The notes under the pieces: generated by a model | Databases searched by the model: none | What the model was told of the DNA's origin: nothing | What the model saw: only the letters and a program-made list of their open reading frames with translations | Made by a program: the position numbers and the translations under genes | Assembly (NCBI GenBank): GCA_020723485.1 | Contig: DYIU01000002.1 | Span: 591,543-655,542 of the forward strand | Direction: 5' to 3' | DNA from: Acidimicrobium ferrooxidans | GTDB lineage: Bacteria; Actinomycetota; Geothermincolia; Fen-727; Anoxymicrobiaceae | DNA length: 64,000 nt | In this document: positions 53,974 to 62,519 of the stretch, one piece after another | How positions within the stretch are numbered: position 1 is the first letter of the stretch | Layout of the letters: each line of letters opens with the position of its first letter

Positions 53974-54315
53974 AGCTCCGCCACTTGAAAGCGGGCGTCT
54001 CAAGCAACCCAACCAATGGAGTGATTGACTGCATCAGCCAAATGTACTAGTTTGTCAGTCAAGCGGCACGCGGCAGGCATGCGGCCTCGCTCATTGGTGC
54101 AGATTGGGGTCTGAAGCGAGGTTGCTCCGCGAACCGCGGTTCTAGGGGGCGAAGACTGATGAACGCTGGGCATAATCGTATTACTCCTGTCATCATTTCC
54201 ATTCTTGCCCTTTCCCTGGCCACGGTCGCCACATACCCCGTTCGCGTACTCGTTGAGTGGGCGTCGTCGGGGTGGAAGTGCCTGGGGCAACCGGACTGGG
54301 AACGGGAGGGGCAGA
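53974..54315 (+). other. 342-nt leader region upstream of the secreted hydrolase
   Basis: No gene is well supported here. It holds a candidate sigma-70-like promoter, TTGACT (54025-54030), a 17-nt spacer and TAGTTT (54048-54053), and a perfect 12-nt palindrome GAACCGCGGTTC at 54131-54142 that could bind a regulator. A 62-codon open frame at 54159-54347 with one hydrophobic stretch (PVIISILALSLATVATYPV) overlaps the next start and is doubtful. I looked for a GEMM riboswitch and did not find one. Confidence 0.4.
54025..54053 (+). promoter_or_regulatory. Candidate promoter for the secreted hydrolase gene
   Basis: TTGACT and TAGTTT are separated by exactly 17 nt, and the -35 is close to consensus. 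It lies about 260 nt before the start codon, leaving a long leader. An inverted repeat TTGACTG/CAGTCAA (54025-54031 and 54055-54061) overlaps it. Confidence 0.35.
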
Positions 54316-57300
54316 ATGAAAGGGAGCAATCACTCATCACCTGCTAAGGCGGCGCGGGTTCTTTCGCTGTTGTGCCTTTGCTTGCTCGCACTGGCTCTGC
54401 TCGCTTCGAATGCATCCGCCGTCGCGGACGCCAATCCGCCCATTCAGTACGACACGGTCATGACGCGCTACTATACCTCGAGCGTGGACGGGGCGACCCT
54501 CCCCTGCTCTGTTTACGTGCCTCAGACCGCGGTGATGATGCCCGTGTGGGTGGACCTGCACGCCTTCGGCGGGCACGGAGGAATCTCCGAGGAGATGGCG
54601 GACGCGGCGAGGGCGTACGGGTGCATAGTCGTCTCTCCATGGGGGCGCAACTACCACAGCTTCTTCATGGACGGCAAGGATAAGGCCGGGGCCCCGGAAC
54701 CGCGCCTTGTCGACGATTTCACGGCCGGCAGCGCCGCGGGCTGGAGCGCGCTCATCGGAGACCGGTGGACAGCGCAGTCGGACAGCTACCAGCAGCTCGA
54801 CCCGTCCGACGCCTGGAAGCTCGCGGGGCGTGCCGGGTCCTCAGGGTCTTACTGCAGCGCCAGCGTCGACATGACGGCCTTCGAGCCGTCGACCGCCGAC
54901 GGCTACGGGGAGTACGCCGGGGGCCTGATGGTGAGGAGGCAGCCTAACGGAGACGGTTACCTGGTCGACCTCGACTGCGACCCGGCGGGCAAGAAATGGG
55001 TCCGCATCTTCAAACGCGGCGGCTCGCAGTGGACGACCCTCAGCCGGACCAGCCTTCCGGACGCCGTTGACCTGCAGGCGACCCACAACCTCAAGGTCGT
55101 TCTCTACGAAGACACCATTGAGGTGCACGGCGACCACTACGTCATGGCTTCGGCACAGGACGCTTCGTTTGCGTCGGGCGAGGTGGCGCTCGCCAGTTTC
55201 GGCGCGAAACACCGGTTCGACGACTTCCGTCTTCAGAACGAGACACTGTACGGCGAGCGGGACGTGATGGATACAGTCGACCAGTGCCTCGAGGAGTTGG
55301 GTGGGACGCTCGCGCTGGCCGACAGTTCCAGGATGTTCATCGCCGGGCAGTCGATGGGAGGGCTCGGCGCGTTGAACCTCGGACTCCACTATCCCGACCT
55401 CTTCGCCTACATCCACCCCGCGTGGGGCCCGAGCGACCTCTCGGAGGGATACGACTGGATCAAGGCCCAGTACCCGGACCAGGACCCATCAACCCCGGTC
55501 GGCGGCCGGTACTACGCGCGGGAGCAGGACGGCAACATAGGCGAGGCGATAAGGGCTTTGCACGGAGGCGTGGAGCCCGGTGCCGGCGGCGCCCCGGTAG
55601 CGAGTAACCTGCACGAGAACAGCGCCAGGTACATCCTGGAGAACGCGCTGAACACGCCGGTGAGGTTCGAGCACCCGGAGTATGATTCACTGGTCCCGAA
55701 CACCACGAGCCCGATGACCATAAAATGGCTCAACACCGGCGGCGATTGGATCAAGGTGAAGGACGGTGACCAGCGCCCCAGTGCCCCGTATGCCAGCGGG
55801 AAGGGGCTCTGGCAAACCTGGGCGGGAACCTCGGGCCTGTACAACTGCGCACCGGAGACAAGCCTCTACGACCCGTCGACCGGGGCCCCGGGGCCAAGCG
55901 TTCCTACGCTCGGCATATGGGATAACACGGACTACAGCGCGATGCTCGACTACGGCTACGGCTCCCACTGCGGGGTAGTCGGAGATTCGAGCCTTGCCGC
56001 TCCTGTTCTGCTGTCTTTCCTCAGGCTCAACAGCCAGTACGGTACCCTTCACGCCGACCCGGACGACGTGGCATACCGCACGTTCGACAGCAAGCATGGG
56101 CGGGCATGGTGGCTGACGCTGGAGCCTGCTTATCCCGACCAGGACAAGCCCGGACTCGCGAGGGCTCACAGGGATATCGCCGCCAACCGCATAAACCTGC
56201 ACGTGAAGAACGGAAAGACGACCACGCTCGACCTGGTCCGCATGAGGATGAACACGACGTCCGGGGTCCTAACCGTGACCGTCGACTCCAACACCTCTCC
56301 TGAATCGGAGTTCAAGGTCTCCGACGAGTACCGAAAGACAGACCTGAGGCTCACGGGCGCGTGGTTCCCGGCAAGGAAAGGGGATTACCAGGTAAGGCTG
56401 GACGGCAGCGCCGTCGGCTTCGAGATGACAGGGACTACCCTGACAGTGCCCGGCATCGATACTGCTTCGGGTACCAGGACATTCACCGTGACTATGCCCT
56501 CAGGACTCGATGGCCTCAACCTCCTGGCGGCCAGGAATCCCGGGTTCGAATCAGGCACAGGAGGGTGGAGCCCGGCCATGGACGGCGGTCTGAACGGCGT
56601 GTTCGAGCTTAACCAGCAGCCCTTCCTTTCTCACTCGGGCAGCAATTCCATAGTGATAAAGAACCCGGTCGCAGGCGCGGCTCCGTACACAGGGTACTGG
56701 CAGTCCGGGACGATTCCGGTCCAGCCTTTGAAAGTCTATGACTTGAGCGCATTCGCGAAGACCCGGGCTTTCAACAGCGTCGAGAGGTCCTACCTGGACG
56801 GCATATACGCCCCCGGCACCGGTTCGTGGGCCGCGGTGGGCCTCATGTGGCAGAGGGCCGATGGGACGCTGGCCGGCTGGGACAACTCCGCTGGAATCAA
56901 CGACAGCACGGGCTGGACACCCATCGAGGTCAGCGCGCCGGCGCCGGCGGATGCGGCAATGGTGAGAGCGGTGCTGTTCACAGTCTGCCCGAACAGCGGG
57001 GGAATAAGTGGAAGCGCGTGGTTCGACGATGTATCGCTGACCACCGAGTCCGCGATGGCTGTCACCTCCGTCTCACCCGCGTCCGCAGCCAACACGGCGG
57101 CTGTCGACCTCAGCGTGGGCGGCACCGGCTTCAAGTCCGGAGCGGCAGTCAGGCTCGAGCGCGGTGCGACGATAATAGGCGCCACCGCCGTGACTGTCAC
57201 GTCGAGCACGACTATAACCTGTCAGGTCAACATTTCGGGCCAGCCTCTCGGAAAGTACGACGTGGTCGTGACAAACCCCGACGGCCAGGAGGCCCGGCTC

Positions 57301-57429
57301 GTCGGTGGTTTCTCAGTGACCGACGCCTGCGGCCAGGGCGCGGCGGCAAGCATCTCTGTCTTCGCGGGCGTCCTGGGGCTGCTGTCTCTCGCGGGTTCGA
57401 CCAGACTGCTCAGGCGAAAGAACCTTTGA
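54316..57429 (+). CDS. Secreted alpha/beta-hydrolase (esterase-like) with inserted domain and anchored C-terminus
   Basis: A 1037-residue exported protein. Signal peptide residues 11-35 (RVLSLLCLCLLALALLASNA). An alpha/beta-hydrolase fold starts at about 65 (MMPVWVDLHAFGGHGG) and continues at about 309 (LYGERDVMDTVDQCLEEL, GQSMGGLGALN with nucleophile S346). Between them, residues about 131-308 form a jelly-roll-like insert (LVDDFTAGSAAGWSALI ... RFDDFRLQNET). A carbohydrate-binding-like module (NPGFESGTGGW, about 730-900) and an IPT/TIG domain follow. The end reads DACGQGAAASISVFAGVLG, a hydrophobic helix and RLLRRKNL, a candidate sorting signal. ATG 54316 follows GGGAGGGG. It may attack polysaccharide esters or polyesters; the substrate is inference. 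Confidence 0.82.
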   Translation: MKGSNHSSPAKAARVLSLLCLCLLALALLASNASAVADANPPIQYDTVMTRYYTSSVDGATLPCSVYVPQTAVMMPVWVDLHAFGGHGGISEEMADAARAYGCIVVSPWGRNYHSFFMDGKDKAGAPEPRLVDDFTAGSAAGWSALIGDRWTAQSDSYQQLDPSDAWKLAGRAGSSGSYCSASVDMTAFEPSTADGYGEYAGGLMVRRQPNGDGYLVDLDCDPAGKKWVRIFKRGGSQWTTLSRTSLPDAVDLQATHNLKVVLYEDTIEVHGDHYVMASAQDASFASGEVALASFGAKHRFDDFRLQNETLYGERDVMDTVDQCLEELGGTLALADSSRMFIAGQSMGGLGALNLGLHYPDLFAYIHPAWGPSDLSEGYDWIKAQYPDQDPSTPVGGRYYAREQDGNIGEAIRALHGGVEPGAGGAPVASNLHENSARYILENALNTPVRFEHPEYDSLVPNTTSPMTIKWLNTGGDWIKVKDGDQRPSAPYASGKGLWQTWAGTSGLYNCAPETSLYDPSTGAPGPSVPTLGIWDNTDYSAMLDYGYGSHCGVVGDSSLAAPVLLSFLRLNSQYGTLHADPDDVAYRTFDSKHGRAWWLTLEPAYPDQDKPGLARAHRDIAANRINLHVKNGKTTTLDLVRMRMNTTSGVLTVTVDSNTSPESEFKVSDEYRKTDLRLTGAWFPARKGDYQVRLDGSAVGFEMTGTTLTVPGIDTASGTRTFTVTMPSGLDGLNLLAARNPGFESGTGGWSPAMDGGLNGVFELNQQPFLSHSGSNSIVIKNPVAGAAPYTGYWQSGTIPVQPLKVYDLSAFAKTRAFNSVERSYLDGIYAPGTGSWAAVGLMWQRADGTLAGWDNSAGINDSTGWTPIEVSAPAPADAAMVRAVLFTVCPNSGGISGSAWFDDVSLTTESAMAVTSVSPASAANTAAVDLSVGGTGFKSGAAVRLERGATIIGATAVTVTSSTTITCQVNISGQPLGKYDVVVTNPDGQEARLVGGFSVTDACGQGAAASISVFAGVLGLLSLAGSTRLLRRKNL
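57229..57343 (+). repeat. Direct repeat, copy 1: conserved IPT/C-terminal anchor DNA
   Basis: About 115 nt match 59105-59219 with five mismatches by my count. The copy covers the end of the IPT domain and the start of the CGQG C-terminal signal in the first of two neighbouring genes. The rest of the two genes is not alike at this level. Confidence 0.85.
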
Positions 57430-57445
57430 TAGGGGGGAATGGGGG

Positions 57446-59305
57446 ATGGCAATCACAAGGCGGGCCCTGAGAAAGCAGACAGATGCAGTCCTTCTCTGCG
57501 TGCTGGTGCTGACGTTCCTTCTGTTCGCGGCACCTGCTTCTCAGGCAGTGCCATTGTGGACGTCCGGGGGCATCGAGATCTACGGGACAGGGCAAACGTA
57601 TGGCGCCGAGGTTGTGAGCATCATCCCCGATGGCTCCGGTGGCTCGATAGTCGTTTGGGTCGATATGCGCAACAGCAGATACGATGTATTCGCTCAGAAA
57701 GTCGATCAGGATGGCGTGTGCCAGTGGGCTGAGAATGGTGTGGACGTCCGAGGCCCGGGAATGACAAGCGGCGCCGTCTCGGCTGAGCACGCCGTAGTCT
57801 CAGACGGAGCGGGCGGAGCGATAATCGCATGGATCGACAGGCGTTCTGGGGGGCCTACTGTATATGTCCAGAGATTGAACCAACACGGAGAGCTCCAATG
57901 GACTACAAATGGCGTGGAAGTTCATGCTCCGGTGGATTGGTATTCCTCGCGCCAGCCGGTTATCGCGTCAGATGGCGCCGGTGGAGCAATCGTCGCATGG
58001 TACGAGTATGACAACCTGGAATGGCACGCTGAATACGCCATCTTCGCTCAAAGGGTAAACTCGTCCGGGGAGCGCCTTTGGAGCGCGAACGGAGTGCAGG
58101 TGAGGGGATTAGGTCCCTTCGGCTCTGCGACTCTGAGCAAGCTGAGCATCGTAGCTGATGGCGATGGTGGGGTCATCATTGCATGGGATGATTTCGGGGC
58201 CGGACGAGATATCTATGCGCAGAGGTTTAATGCGGGAGGAACCGCCCTCTGGAAAGCGGGCGGTCTCGAGGTCTGCGCAGTCGATGTCGCGTGTATTTCT
58301 CCGCTTGCCGCATCGGACGGCGCGGGAGGCGCCATAATCACCTGGTGGGAGCGCTATCCGGACGGTTATGAGGTCTTTGCTCAGAGGGTCACATCAGGCG
58401 GACAATGCCTCTGGACCTCAAGTGGAGTGAACGTAAGGGGGATGTCCTATCCCGGTGGCGCAGGATCTCCGAGTATCACAACCGATGGCCGCGGTGGCGC
58501 CATCATTGCCTGGGCCGATGCTCGGAATACAACCGGCGCATCCGTTGAATGTGAAATTTATGTTCAGAGGCTTGATGCCGCGGGGACGGCACTATGGACT
58601 CCTGGCGGAGTCCTGTTGACACCCGAAGGTCCCGATCTCTACGGACGCCCGAGAATAACCTCCGATGGTCTCTGTGGCGCCATCATCGCGTGGCAAGGAC
58701 CTATGGAAACGTACGCCTATCCAAGTCAGATCATTCGCGCGCAAAAGGTAAGCCCATCAGGTTCCCCGGAGTGGGTCGCGAACGGCGACATAGTCAGAGG
58801 CAAGGAATTCGCCGGCTACGCTACGGATGAGGTCATTGCATCGGATGAACATGGTGGAGCGATCCTTGCCTGGCGGGACAGCCGCTCCGGAAAGGTCGAT
58901 GTCTACGCTCAGAGGGTTGTTAATCCGACGCCCTCGGTCACGTCGATAGCTCCCGCAGCAGCATCAAACCTATGGGCAGTTGATACGAGTATTGTTGGGA
59001 ATAACTTCTCAGAGGGCGCATCGGTAAGGATTATGCGCGGGAGCACGGTAATCGAGGCTACCGGCGTCACGGTGGTATCGGCAACATCCATCAGCTGTAA
59101 TATCAACATATCGGGCCAGCCTCTCGGCAAGTACGACGTGGTCGTGACAAATCCCGACGGCCAGGAGGCCCGGCTCGTCGGCGGTTTCTCGGTGACCGAC
59201 GCCTGCGGCCAGGGCGCGGTGGCTTCGGTATCTGTTTTTGCGGCAACCCTGGGACTCATGTCTGTGATGGGGATAGGGTTGAGGCGGCGGCGGAAGGGCA
59301 CCTAG
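57446..59305 (+). CDS. Secreted beta-propeller-like protein with IPT domain and CGQG C-terminal signal
   Basis: A 619-residue exported protein. Signal peptide (AVLLCVLVLTFLLFAAPASQA) leads to about eight repeats of 55-60 residues with the pattern SDGAGGAIIAW-x-D-x-R ... YAQRV ... LW, which should build a beta-propeller (about 35-490). An IPT/TIG domain (about 500-585, SVTSIAPAAASNLWAVD) follows. The end, DACGQGAVASVSVFAATLG plus a hydrophobic helix and RRRRKGT, matches that of the upstream hydrolase. ATG 57446 follows GGGGGGAATGGGGG and lies 16 nt after the previous stop, so they are co-transcribed. It has no enzyme motif, so it probably binds a surface ligand or a partner. Confidence 0.83.
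   Translation: MAITRRALRKQTDAVLLCVLVLTFLLFAAPASQAVPLWTSGGIEIYGTGQTYGAEVVSIIPDGSGGSIVVWVDMRNSRYDVFAQKVDQDGVCQWAENGVDVRGPGMTSGAVSAEHAVVSDGAGGAIIAWIDRRSGGPTVYVQRLNQHGELQWTTNGVEVHAPVDWYSSRQPVIASDGAGGAIVAWYEYDNLEWHAEYAIFAQRVNSSGERLWSANGVQVRGLGPFGSATLSKLSIVADGDGGVIIAWDDFGAGRDIYAQRFNAGGTALWKAGGLEVCAVDVACISPLAASDGAGGAIITWWERYPDGYEVFAQRVTSGGQCLWTSSGVNVRGMSYPGGAGSPSITTDGRGGAIIAWADARNTTGASVECEIYVQRLDAAGTALWTPGGVLLTPEGPDLYGRPRITSDGLCGAIIAWQGPMETYAYPSQIIRAQKVSPSGSPEWVANGDIVRGKEFAGYATDEVIASDEHGGAILAWRDSRSGKVDVYAQRVVNPTPSVTSIAPAAASNLWAVDTSIVGNNFSEGASVRIMRGSTVIEATGVTVVSATSISCNINISGQPLGKYDVVVTNPDGQEARLVGGFSVTDACGQGAVASVSVFAATLGLMSVMGIGLRRRRKGT
59105..59219 (+). repeat. Direct repeat, copy 2: conserved IPT/C-terminal anchor DNA
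   Basis: The partner of 57229-57343, in the same reading frame, covering the end of the IPT domain and the CGQG signal. High nucleotide identity in this part only suggests recent copying or gene conversion. Confidence 0.85.
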
Positions 59306-59403: not shown

Positions 59404-60606
59404 TTAAAGGCCGACTATGGCGATGCTGCAGACGTTCTGGTTCGGGACGCCGCCCAGGTTGTGGGTGAGCCCGAACTTCGGGTCCTTCACCAGGCGCTCC
59501 TCGGGCCAGCGGCGCAGCAGCTGGTTGTACATCTCGAAGAGCATCCGCAGGCCGGAGGCCGCGATGGGGTGCCCGAAGCACTTGAGCCCGCCGTCCGGCT
59601 GGCACGGTATCTGACCCGTAAGGTCGTAGAACCCGTCGAGGATATCGTCGCACGCCTTTCCCGGCTCGGAGATGTGCAGGTCCTCCATCGTCGCGAGTTC
59701 GGTGATGGAGAAACAGTCGTGCACCTCCATCATGCTTATCTCCTCGCGGGGGTTCTTGATGCCCGCTTCCTTGTACGCCTCGGAAGAAGCCCGGCGCGTG
59801 GTGAGCATGCCGGAGCCGTCCCAGTCGGTATACATCGCTTCCTCACCGGAGCTGACCGAGACCTGCAGGGCCTTTACCTTGACCAGCTCCTCGTTGGCCT
59901 TCACCTTCTTCGCTATCTCCGGCGTTGTCACGATGGCGCACGCTGAGCCGTCGCTCACCCCACAGCAGTCGAAAAGACCCAGCGGGTAGGCGATCATAGG
60001 CGCGGCGAGTATCTGCTCGACCGGGATGGCCTTGCGAAGGTGCGCGCGCGGGTTGTTCGCGCCGTTCTGGTGGCTCTTCCAGGAGATGTGGGCCATGGCT
60101 TCCTTGACCTTCTCCATGGGAACGTTATACGCCGCGGAGTACGCGGTGCCGAGCTGGGCGAACATGCCCGGCGCGGTTGCATTCGGCCCGATCATCGCCT
60201 GCTGCTGTCCGAAAGCGGGCGAGTCGGGAAGGCCGCCGTAGCCGGTGTCCTTCAGCTTCTCCACGCCCAGTGCGAGCGCTATGTCGTAGGCGCCGCTCGC
60301 GACGCCGTAGCACGCGCCCCTGAACGCCTCGGTCCCGGAAGCGCAGAAGTTCTCCACGCGGGTCACGGGCACCAGCGGGAGCTTCAGGGCGGCGCCCAGG
60401 AAGTTACCGCCCTTCCCGATGTTTATCTCGTCGAAGTGGCTCCCCAGCCACGCGGCCTGTATCTCCTTCTTCTCGATACCTGCGTCCTCGATGCATTCGG
60501 TGAAAGCCTCGACGGCCAGGTCCTCAGGGGCGGACTCCCAGCGCTCTCCGAACTTGGTGCAGCCCATCCCGAGGATTACTACCTTGTCTCTAATACCTTT
60601 TGCCAT
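59404..60606 (-). CDS. Thiolase family protein (acetyl-CoA acetyltransferase-like)
   Basis: A 400-residue thiolase. The nucleophile region is ENFCASGTEAF, with HDCFSITE and GGLKCFGHPIAASG supplying the His and second Cys. It resembles the SCP2/archaeal-type thiolases that act with a DUF35 partner. It starts at ATG 60606, directly abutting the stop of the HMG-CoA-synthase-like/DUF35 fusion gene, so the two are tightly coupled. It could make or cleave beta-ketoacyl-CoA; direction and substrate are unknown. A REP-like element follows its stop. Confidence 0.88.
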   Translation of the reverse strand: MAKGIRDKVVILGMGCTKFGERWESAPEDLAVEAFTECIEDAGIEKKEIQAAWLGSHFDEINIGKGGNFLGAALKLPLVPVTRVENFCASGTEAFRGACYGVASGAYDIALALGVEKLKDTGYGGLPDSPAFGQQQAMIGPNATAPGMFAQLGTAYSAAYNVPMEKVKEAMAHISWKSHQNGANNPRAHLRKAIPVEQILAAPMIAYPLGLFDCCGVSDGSACAIVTTPEIAKKVKANEELVKVKALQVSVSSGEEAMYTDWDGSGMLTTRRASSEAYKEAGIKNPREEISMMEVHDCFSITELATMEDLHISEPGKACDDILDGFYDLTGQIPCQPDGGLKCFGHPIAASGLRMLFEMYNQLLRRWPEERLVKDPKFGLTHNLGGVPNQNVCSIAIVGL

Positions 60607-62067
60607 TTATTCCGCCCCCTCTGCTGCTGGTACGGCCTTCCAGAAGTAATCCGTGATGTCTCTCATCGCGTCGTAGTACTTTATCCGGAAGCTGAAATCG
60701 ACCGGTCCTCCGACCGCGAGGTCGTCCACCGTGCAATCCGTGAAGTCGAAGATGTACCGGCCGCCTCCGTTGAAGTTGACCGAACCGTAAACCGCCGGTG
60801 GGTTGATCGACGCTGCAAGCATGTCAGAGGTAAAGCTCGCTATCTTGCCGCCGACGTCCGAGAGAACGACCGGCTCCGTCTGGTCTACGGCCCCGCACTC
60901 GGGATTGACGCACACCTTCTGAGGCGGGAACTGGACCGTGCCGCACACGGTGCACTTGTTCCCCTCGAGGCTGAGCATCGCCCTGTGGGAACGCCACATG
61001 AGTGACCAGCGGGTCCACTTCTGCTCCTCGCCCCTCAGGCCCGTGTCGACCTTGACCATGCGGCGCCAGGTGAGGTACTTGGCGTAGTTGTCCAGGTCCG
61101 CGCGGCGGTTCAGGCTGCCCATCACCCCGCGTCGGGGCTTTAGCTCGTGGAGCTTGTCGGTCACCTCGAAGTAGAGGGCGTCGCAGCCGCTGCCGTAGCT
61201 TATCAGAAGTATCTTGTCGCCCGGCTTTGCCTCCTCGAGCGCCTTGACCATCATCAACAGGGGCTGGGCGGTCCCGGTGTCGCCGACCACCGCCTGGAGG
61301 TTGTCGACGACCTGGTCGGCCTCGAGGCCGAGCTTCTTGTTCAAGGACTTGCGGGCGCCGCCGAAGTAGCAGGGGTAGATTATCTTCGCGAAATCGCCGG
61401 GGGCCACGCCGTATTTCTCACACAGACCGTTGACCACCTCGGGGATGAACTGGCCGAACCCGACGTCACGTATCCAGCGCTCCTCCCACTGCCGGTCGTA
61501 CTTGGCCTCTGAGCCGCGGAAGTGGTCAACGAAGTCGTGCCCTGTGGAGAACGAGCCCTTGAACTCGGCTATTACGTCGGTATCGCCGACCATCAGGGCC
61601 GCGGCGCCGTCGCCGAACATGAGCTCCTGCACGCTTCCCATCGTCCCCAGCCTGCTGTCCGCGGCGGAGACCAGCACGTTCTCGGCCGTTCCCGCCGAAA
61701 CCGCGTCGAGCGCCGCTATGAGCGCGCTTGTGCCCGCCTTGAGCCCGCCGCCGAAGTCGGCGGTCCTGACGTCCTCCCTCGCCGCCAGCGCGCCGGCGAC
61801 CAGGTTCGCGCAGAGGCGCTCCTTGTACGGGGCGGTCGTCGATGCGAAGTAGACGCCGCCGACAAGGTCCCGGTTGAACCCGGCAGCGCAGTCGGATGCG
61901 GCGGCGGCGGCCATCGTGACCGAGTCCTCGTCGAAGTTGGCCACCGCTTTTTCCCCTTGCGCGTTCAGCATGTTGGCGGGGTTGATCCAGCCCATCGAAC
62001 CGAAGACAATCATCCGGTTCAATCTGTAGCGGGGAATGTACCCTCCGTATGAGCGGATCCCAACCAT
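60607..62067 (-). CDS. HMG-CoA-synthase-like domain fused to DUF35 OB-fold, catalytic Cys missing
   Basis: A 486-residue fusion. Residues 1-350 have the HMG-CoA synthase/KAS III fold (MVGIRSYGGYIPRYRLNR, ELMFGDGAAALMVGD, YPCYFGGARKSLNKKLGL). Residues about 375-486 are a DUF35 domain with zinc ribbon (CTVCGTVQFPPQKVCVNPEC) and OB fold. The nucleophile segment, ACKAGT in archaeal HMG-CoA synthases, reads GGLKAGTSAL here, so the Cys is Leu. The domain therefore probably does not carry out the normal condensation and may act as a partner of the thiolase encoded next. ATG 62067 follows GGGAGTGATCAA; the upstream extension is unsupported. Confidence 0.85.
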   Translation of the reverse strand: MVGIRSYGGYIPRYRLNRMIVFGSMGWINPANMLNAQGEKAVANFDEDSVTMAAAAASDCAAGFNRDLVGGVYFASTTAPYKERLCANLVAGALAAREDVRTADFGGGLKAGTSALIAALDAVSAGTAENVLVSAADSRLGTMGSVQELMFGDGAAALMVGDTDVIAEFKGSFSTGHDFVDHFRGSEAKYDRQWEERWIRDVGFGQFIPEVVNGLCEKYGVAPGDFAKIIYPCYFGGARKSLNKKLGLEADQVVDNLQAVVGDTGTAQPLLMMVKALEEAKPGDKILLISYGSGCDALYFEVTDKLHELKPRRGVMGSLNRRADLDNYAKYLTWRRMVKVDTGLRGEEQKWTRWSLMWRSHRAMLSLEGNKCTVCGTVQFPPQKVCVNPECGAVDQTEPVVLSDVGGKIASFTSDMLAASINPPAVYGSVNFNGGGRYIFDFTDCTVDDLAVGGPVDFSFRIKYYDAMRDITDYFWKAVPAAEGAE

Positions 62068-62189
62068 TTGATCACTCCCTTTCTGCGAAATCTCCTGCCG
62101 AAACCGTAATCTATCGTCCGATTCGTACTTGGTCCCATGTCCCGTTTCCGGCCACCCGCGCCGGAGCCGCCTAAAGTCTTTATGAACCA

Positions 62190-62519
62190 CTAGTCGAAGT
62201 CAAATACTTCAATATAGGGGAACATCTGCTTGAGGAGCGCCTTGATGCGCTTCCTTTCTTCGGTGTTGGTGACGTGCTTGACCTCTGTTACCGGGCGGCC
62301 TTCCTCGTTCTTGGAGGACTTCCAGGAGGTGACGTACCCCGCGATCGCGACCATCCCCACGCCGCGGACGGTGCAGCAGGACGTATCGAAGTGCGCTCCC
62401 TTCAGCGCGTACAGGACCTTCTTGCCCTCGAAGTCGACCACGCCCTCGTCGAGCACCTTGTAATACCCACCGATTCCCCTTATCTCCTCGTTGAGAGGGT
62501 AGTGGGTGTAACTGGGCAT
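62190..62519 (-). CDS. Small conserved-looking protein of unknown function
   Basis: A 109-residue soluble protein. It begins MPSYTHYPLNEEIRGIGGYYK and contains FDTSCCTVRGVGMVAIAGYV, a Cys-Cys pair before a glycine-rich turn, and a charged C-terminal helix (EERKRIKALLKQMFPYIEV). I do not recognise a family. ATG 62519 follows GGGAGTG. It is the first gene of a three-gene minus-strand unit, 122 nt before the HMG-CoA-synthase-like/DUF35 gene, so it may serve the same acyl-CoA reaction. Confidence 0.7.
   Translation of the reverse strand: MPSYTHYPLNEEIRGIGGYYKVLDEGVVDFEGKKVLYALKGAHFDTSCCTVRGVGMVAIAGYVTSWKSSKNEEGRPVTEVKHVTNTEERKRIKALLKQMFPYIEVFDFD

Follow-up and report, generated by a model that had tools for sequence, protein, structure and literature searches.

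Why do two neighbouring exported proteins with unrelated bodies share one C-terminal end, and which enzymes act on it? The question is raised by a 64,000-nucleotide stretch of contig DYIU01000002.1 from assembly GCA_020723485.1, hereafter referred to as the window. Two adjacent genes of the window encode proteins that end in a CGQG motif, a hydrophobic helix and a basic tail, exactly as noted in an earlier reading of the sequence (the original prediction), and both proteins start with a signal peptide. Their C-termini read ...TDACGQGAAASISVFAGVLGLLSLAGSTRLLRRKNL (protein 1) and ...TDACGQGAVASVSVFAATLGLMSVMGIGLRRRRKGT (protein 2). From comparative evidence, we consider it fairly probable that this CGxG-helix-Arg tail (the tag) is a C-terminal lipidation and surface-anchoring signal that is modified by a dedicated second copy of the lipid transferase Lgt, here called Lgt2, and possibly cut thereafter by a CPBP protease.

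The CGxG tag across the class

We studied the distribution of the tag within 31 genomes of the class, identified as Candidatus Geothermincolia via loci in named genomes. All are drafts, i.e., apparent absences may be assembly gaps. The class-wide search used the tag-only profile A2, which starts at the Cys. Tags are found in 21 of the 31 genomes with about 60 tagged proteins altogether; these counts rest on profile searches, from which 61 tagged proteins were extracted and 59 tabulated. The source genome carries four tags according to BLAST, i.e., the two of the window as well as C1:4657-4752 and C11:373300-373398. The original prediction was to be dropped if only the two window proteins carried the motif, which is clearly not the case. 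With homologous tags on two more proteins of the source genome and in 21/31 genomes of the class, the shared tag is far above chance. Several unrelated proteins are tagged per genome, with up to seven tags extracted from a single one.

The tabulated tags share a short motif, a helix and a basic end, such that the predicted CTERM-like tripartite architecture holds across the class. The tag is always C-terminal, and the N-terminus is signal-peptide-like wherever the protein start is present. Cys and the next Gly are found in 59/59 tags and the second Gly in 58/59, figures that are inflated by selecting with a pattern that begins with Cys; variation is seen at the third position and in the helix. 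The last 12 residues comprise on average 5.6 basic and 0.25 acidic residues.

Because the Cys-led selection inflates conservation, we ran an independent search that starts from the TIG domain, which most tags of the class follow. The respective profile A4 stops before the tag and was applied to both tag-bearing and tagless genomes. We considered 20 untagged TIG matches from four tag-bearing genomes and the source genome, a few of which run off the sequence. None of the readable ends shows a helix-basic tail without CGxG; most matches enter long WYFAEG-type repeats or stop within a few residues. That is, in this sample a helix-basic tail after TIG comes only with CGxG.

Some side observations concern the same domain and tag. 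Many TIG proteins of the class (L283-L304, L308-L327) continue into repeats of the WYFAEG type and have no membrane tail at their end, and genome G001 shows no CGxG tag despite its 63 TIG matches. Locus L171 (G017:C24:15712-15792) shows the helix and basic tail of the tag without CGxG, following frame-broken sequence, and is by its sequence probably a decayed tag gene.

Among 296 genomes across the phylum, every strong match falls within the class, and about 265 other Actinomycetota genomes are without the tag. A few weaker hits to other Actinomycetota (E 7e-4 to 0.01) were rejected, as they begin at profile position 4 or later and thus miss the motif start. No tag is found on viral contigs that encode this TIG domain. 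A literature search on Geothermincolia surface proteins returned nothing.

A second Lgt co-occurs with the tag

All 31 genomes carry Lgt (PF01790), with exactly one copy in each of the 10 tagless ones. Within a tree of 51 Lgt proteins, 20 form the Lgt2 clade (support 98/88), which is represented in 20/21 tag-bearing genomes compared to 0/10 tagless ones (one-sided Fisher test 2.5e-7, relatedness ignored). For G004 and G027, the sole Lgt belongs to this clade. On a two-gene genome tree, the tag changes about four times, which provides 3-4 independent contrasts; all of them agree with Lgt2 or do not differ. On the same tree, rhomboid, sortase and Rv0804-type CPBP do not follow the tag.

Gene order also connects both genes. 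Within G005, Lgt2 directly follows a tag gene in the same orientation, with its ATG about 10 bp past the tag stop, and the same arrangement is found in G015 with a distance of about 340 bp. The two genomes belong to different families. No tag gene was found near any canonical Lgt. The thiolase-like gene next to Lgt2 in G005 also adjoins it in the source genome (G000), where no tag gene lies between them.

Lgt2 is a full-length PF01790 member, scoring above the cut-off. It keeps the equivalents of R143, R239, G154, E243 and R246, as well as Y26 by alignment; Y26, H103, R143, N146, G154 and R239 are reported as essential in a study of Lgt residue roles (PMC13251419). H103 is replaced by Tyr, as in Firmicutes Lgt, and N146 is Cys in both Lgt2 and the Lgt1 of the same genomes, likewise in L. 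interrogans (PMC13251419). Position 188 separates the two groups, with Trp in 20/20 Lgt2 and Gly in 30/30 canonical copies. Second Lgts are known from other organisms, e.g., M. smegmatis (PMC13251419).

The surroundings of Lgt2 show two further features. The thiolase-like gene that flanks it in G000 and G005 differs from the one beside the tag genes of the window, where thiolase-like and HMG-CoA-synthase-like proteins (families judged from sequence) are encoded on the minus strand at 59404-62190. Moreover, in at least seven genomes of the Geothermincolaceae (L339, L341, L346, L349, L353, L357, L359), the gene of a small membrane-like protein (FREEQRFHQWW...) lies directly 3' of Lgt2 or within about 1.8 kb.

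Candidate processing proteases

The original prediction suggested looking for a co-occurring exosortase, rhombosortase or similar protease. Exosortase was found in 0/30 genomes of the class. Rhomboid is absent from all 13 genomes of the window's order (G000-G012, source genome included), five of which are tagged, while it was found in 14/14 control genomes. Sortase was not found in the tag-bearing genomes G004, G011 and G012, and no PrsW was found. We thus rejected all four as processing enzymes, since each is missing from some or all tag-bearing genomes.

CPBP proteases are present in 31/31 genomes, tagless ones included, and no CPBP clade tracks the tag, such that CPBP was dismissed as a tag-specific enzyme; the Rv0804-type was rejected for lack of correlation. 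The CPBP of the source genome stays below the NCBIfam cut-offs of MrtJ (40.5 vs. 75), Mrt_core (27.5 vs. 100) and MrtC (22.8 vs. 195). The main CPBP type of the class shows an N-terminal zinc-finger-like Cys region and adjoins, in the loci that were read, aspartokinase and aspartate-semialdehyde dehydrogenase (asd) genes, named from sequence. This locus is common across the class, with a tandem doubling in most genomes of the largest family, Geothermincolaceae. G004, G005, G011 and G012 have a single CPBP each, all of one orthologous type. In G005, HlyD, ABC ATPase and MacB-like genes come after the CPBP gene.

CPBP is therefore a possible, unspecific candidate for tag cleavage. A CPBP of myxosortase type may be the membrane protease that had been proposed, though it does not track the tag; the enzyme that does is a lipid transferase and not a protease.

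Proposed mechanism and alternative explanations

The observations can be combined into a three-step model. The protein would be exported by its N-terminal signal peptide until the C-terminal helix stops in the membrane with the basic end inside, which would place the Cys of CGxG on the outer side of the membrane. This step is well supported by the tag architecture. Next, Lgt2 would attach diacylglyceryl to that Cys, as suggested by co-occurrence, gene adjacency and the conserved catalytic residues. Finally, a cut behind the lipidated Cys would remove the helix, with a CPBP intramembrane protease as the most likely enzyme. This is the weakest step, to which we assign, by analogy with myxosortase, about even odds. 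The protein would end up outside the cell, held by a C-terminal lipid.

The predicted lipid link through the Cys is thus retained as the likely chemistry, supported by comparative evidence. The more specific claim, i.e., that an Lgt paralog lipidates a Cys just before a C-terminal helix, with inverted topology compared to ordinary lipoproteins and resulting in a C-terminal lipid anchor, has in our view a slightly better than even chance.

Several points weigh against lipidation by Lgt2 followed by CPBP cleavage. G012 carries two tags and no Lgt2 was found in this genome, which is 86% complete in 280 contigs. With only 3-4 independent contrasts, a formal test is unable to reach 0.05. Since no CPBP clade tracks the tag, the cleavage step is without specific support. 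Acting on a Cys that precedes a C-terminal helix, a diacylglyceryl transferase would work in said inverted topology, and Lgt2 could instead serve ordinary N-terminal lipoproteins.

We compared four other explanations. In a myxosortase-like system, CPBP would cut, the ordinary Lgt or another general enzyme would lipidate, and Lgt2 would be unrelated to the tag. CPBP is indeed the only one of the tested sorting-protease families (exosortase, rhomboid, sortase, PrsW, CPBP) that is present in every tag-bearing genome, and four genomes have just the one orthologous type. Furthermore, a CPBP enzyme cleaves MYXO-CTERM, whose Cys is invariant, and this cleavage works in E. coli, such that a general lipidating enzyme may suffice (PMC11980579). 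However, the same CPBP is found in tagless genomes at a locus common across the class, its scores are far under the NCBIfam myxosortase cut-offs, and both the distribution and the adjacency of Lgt2 would be left unexplained. We therefore regard this system as unlikely. Sortase, rhombosortase or exosortase as handling enzyme is largely refuted and receives next to no weight, even though the tripartite architecture is common to all three systems: the respective genes are missing from some or all tag-bearing genomes as detailed above, and the tags show no LPXTG, GlyGly or PEP motif.

The tail could also be a plain C-terminal membrane anchor without processing, with CGxG as a structural cap or disulfide cysteine, given that a helix and a basic end alone are enough for anchoring. 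Against this stand the near-invariant Cys-Gly-x-Gly among varying helix letters, the readable ends of untagged TIG matches, none of which shows a helix-basic tail, and the correlation with Lgt2, which would go unexplained; we consider this explanation rather improbable. Finally, the tails might reflect shared ancestry alone, with duplication and gene conversion spreading a TIG-plus-tail module whose motif is not recognised functionally. Most tags do follow TIG, and a conversion-like tract is common to the two genes of the window (see below). On the other hand, at least L160, L166 and L172 carry the tag behind an end that is not TIG, TIG domains are mostly without a tag, the motif persists as the TIG sequence diverges, and no intact genes with a lost tag Cys were seen. 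Ancestry alone is thus a very unlikely explanation.

We favour a tag that is lipidated by Lgt2. If true, Lgt2 would be the first enzyme known to lipidate Cys-containing C-terminal sorting tags. An extra Lgt that comes and goes with the tag, and is found beside tag genes, renders the lipidation question directly testable. Independently, an uncatalogued sorting tag within a class of uncultured Actinomycetota helps to annotate surface proteins there.

Modularity of the tag and layout of the window

The coordinates of all features are provided in Table 1. The body of protein 1 matches PF00756, PF00326 and PF02018; its start codon is our choice within an open reading frame that opens at 54205. Protein 2 shows a weak match to the beta-propeller repeat TIGR04275. 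The bodies are unrelated, as predicted (best BLASTP E = 0.08), although the shared part is larger than the tag: a whole TIG domain of about 90 residues directly precedes CGQG in both proteins. Outside the tract discussed below, the two TIG domains are about 50-55% identical on amino-acid level.

The other tag bearers vary as well. They include a subtilase (L167), hydrolase and InlB-repeat proteins (L172, L160), a protein without Pfam match (L166), propellers (L131), a YCF48-like protein (L146) and a protein with eleven TIG domains (L163). No TIG domain precedes the tag in at least L160, L166 and L172. The closest TIG relatives in Myxococcota have, at the position of the tag, a GCSC- or GCGC-type motif, a helix and a basic tail, i.e., the MYXO-CTERM pattern. 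On sequence grounds, one TIG domain thus bears different Cys tags depending on the phylum, which agrees with its name choice-of-anchor Z.

The DNA identity of about 95% claimed for the end of both genes is confirmed for a tract of 117 bp with 5 mismatches, flanked by 55% (left) and 53% (right) identity. Yet, it spans only the last TIG strands and CGQGA and ends as the helix begins, with helix and tail sharing merely 53% identity. The tag region was thus not copied as a unit, as had been proposed, and the tract gives no evidence for a tag that moves as such. The tract is recent, since 33 of 39 codons around it are identical. It is probably a gene-conversion or recombination tract, with conversion between neighbours as the plain reading.

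Table 1. Features of the window, followed by the Lgt2 and CPBP genes of the source genome (given with genome and contig). CoaZ_rpt denotes NF058597; the class-wide profile A4 includes both window TIG sequences themselves, which bears on their E-values.
Feature	Position	Strand	Remarks
Tagged protein 1	54316..57429	+	signal peptide, esterase/prolyl-oligopeptidase-like domain, CBM_4_9-like domain, TIG domain, CGQG tag
TIG domain, protein 1	57058..57327	+	CoaZ_rpt 30.7 bits; TIG 12.3 bits; A4 E 8.2e-38
High-identity tract	57227..57343	+	partner of 59103-59219; 117 bp, 95.7% identity
CGQG signature, tag 1	57328..57339	+	class-wide Cys and first Gly 59/59, second Gly 58/59
Hydrophobic helix, tag 1	57340..57402	+	17-residue Kyte-Doolittle mean 2.05
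Basic tail, tag 1	57403..57426	+	sequence RLLRRKNL
Tagged protein 2	57446..59305	+	signal peptide, propeller-like repeat body, TIG domain, CGQG tag
TIG domain, protein 2	58934..59203	+	CoaZ_rpt 23.4 bits (whole protein); A4 E 6.9e-38
High-identity tract partner	59103..59219	+	pairs with 57227-57343
CGQG signature, tag 2	59204..59215	+	same class-wide conservation as tag 1
Hydrophobic helix, tag 2	59216..59281	+	17-residue Kyte-Doolittle mean 1.94
Basic tail, tag 2	59282..59302	+	sequence RRRRKGT
Source-genome Lgt2	G000:C3:513495-514172	-	PF01790 E 9.4e-45, positions 1-231 of 240
Source-genome CPBP (L065)	G000:C3:594712-594975		orthologues across the class

Comparison with known systems

No NCBIfam model (June 2026) matches the CGxG tag over its cut-off, and only weak sub-threshold matches are observed. 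One in silico paper reportedly defined several Cys-containing CTERM signals; the CGxG tag could be mentioned there.

Among the established systems, PEP-CTERM/exosortase and GlyGly-CTERM/rhombosortase differ by their enzymes, with the exosortase gene in 0/30 genomes and the rhomboid gene absent from both the source genome and its order. LPXTG/sortase differs in both respects, as the tags lack the motif and sortase was not found in three bearers. N-terminal lipoproteins with their lipobox (L-[AS]-[GA]-C) are distinct too, since the Cys of the tag is C-terminal and the residues before it are variable. Synerg-CTERM/MrtS and JDVT-CTERM/MrtJ (NCBIfam) are further CTERM systems with a CPBP enzyme, and MrtJ and MrtS are among the better myxosortase-type matches of Geothermincolia CPBPs. 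However, all respective CPBP scores are below cut-off and the tag models match 0/24 tags.

The domain before the tag is matched by NF058597 (choice-of-anchor Z repeating domain), which does not extend to the CGxG tag itself. We read its name as fitting one domain with alternative anchors. Lgt2 resembles Lgt (PF01790; E. coli Lgt 5AZB) as a full-length member with most essential residues, and differs from canonical Lgt in forming a separate clade that is restricted to tag-bearing genomes and carries Trp for Gly at position 188.

MYXO-CTERM (TIGR03901) with myxosortase MrtX shares with the tag a C-terminal Cys motif, a helix and an Arg-rich end, varied exported substrates, and its position after the same TIG domain in Myxococcota. 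Lipidation of its Cys has been proposed; as of 2025 the lipidating enzyme was stated to be unidentified, with Lgt as the leading guess (PMC11980579). Differences are the motif (GCxC vs. CGxG) and the phylum. Furthermore, the MYXO-CTERM model scores the first tag member with 15.3 bits (cut-off 20) and aligns to helix and tail only, no CPBP of the class reaches the myxosortase cut-offs, and here it is a second Lgt that tracks the tag. The link to MYXO-CTERM is thus a functional resemblance, with membership failing on both the model score and the myxosortase test.

Two or more Lgt genes are found in 8/8 sampled Myxococcota genomes. Respective loci in G302-G309 (L234, L235, L244, L245, L249, L267, L268, L270) comprise two to four Lgt genes per genome, several in a divergent clade; divergent Lgts of a Myxococcota order have been noted before (PMC13251419). 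We rejected these paralogs as relatives of Lgt2, since they do not cluster with it in the eight genomes. A connection of Myxococcota Lgt paralogs to MYXO-CTERM is possible and serves as a lead only: if Lgt2 acts as proposed, other Lgt paralogs, e.g., those in Myxococcota, might act likewise on MYXO-CTERM.

With tripartite CTERM signals in general, the CGxG tag shares the short motif, helix and basic end at the C-terminus of proteins with a signal peptide, as well as the occurrence on several unrelated proteins per genome.

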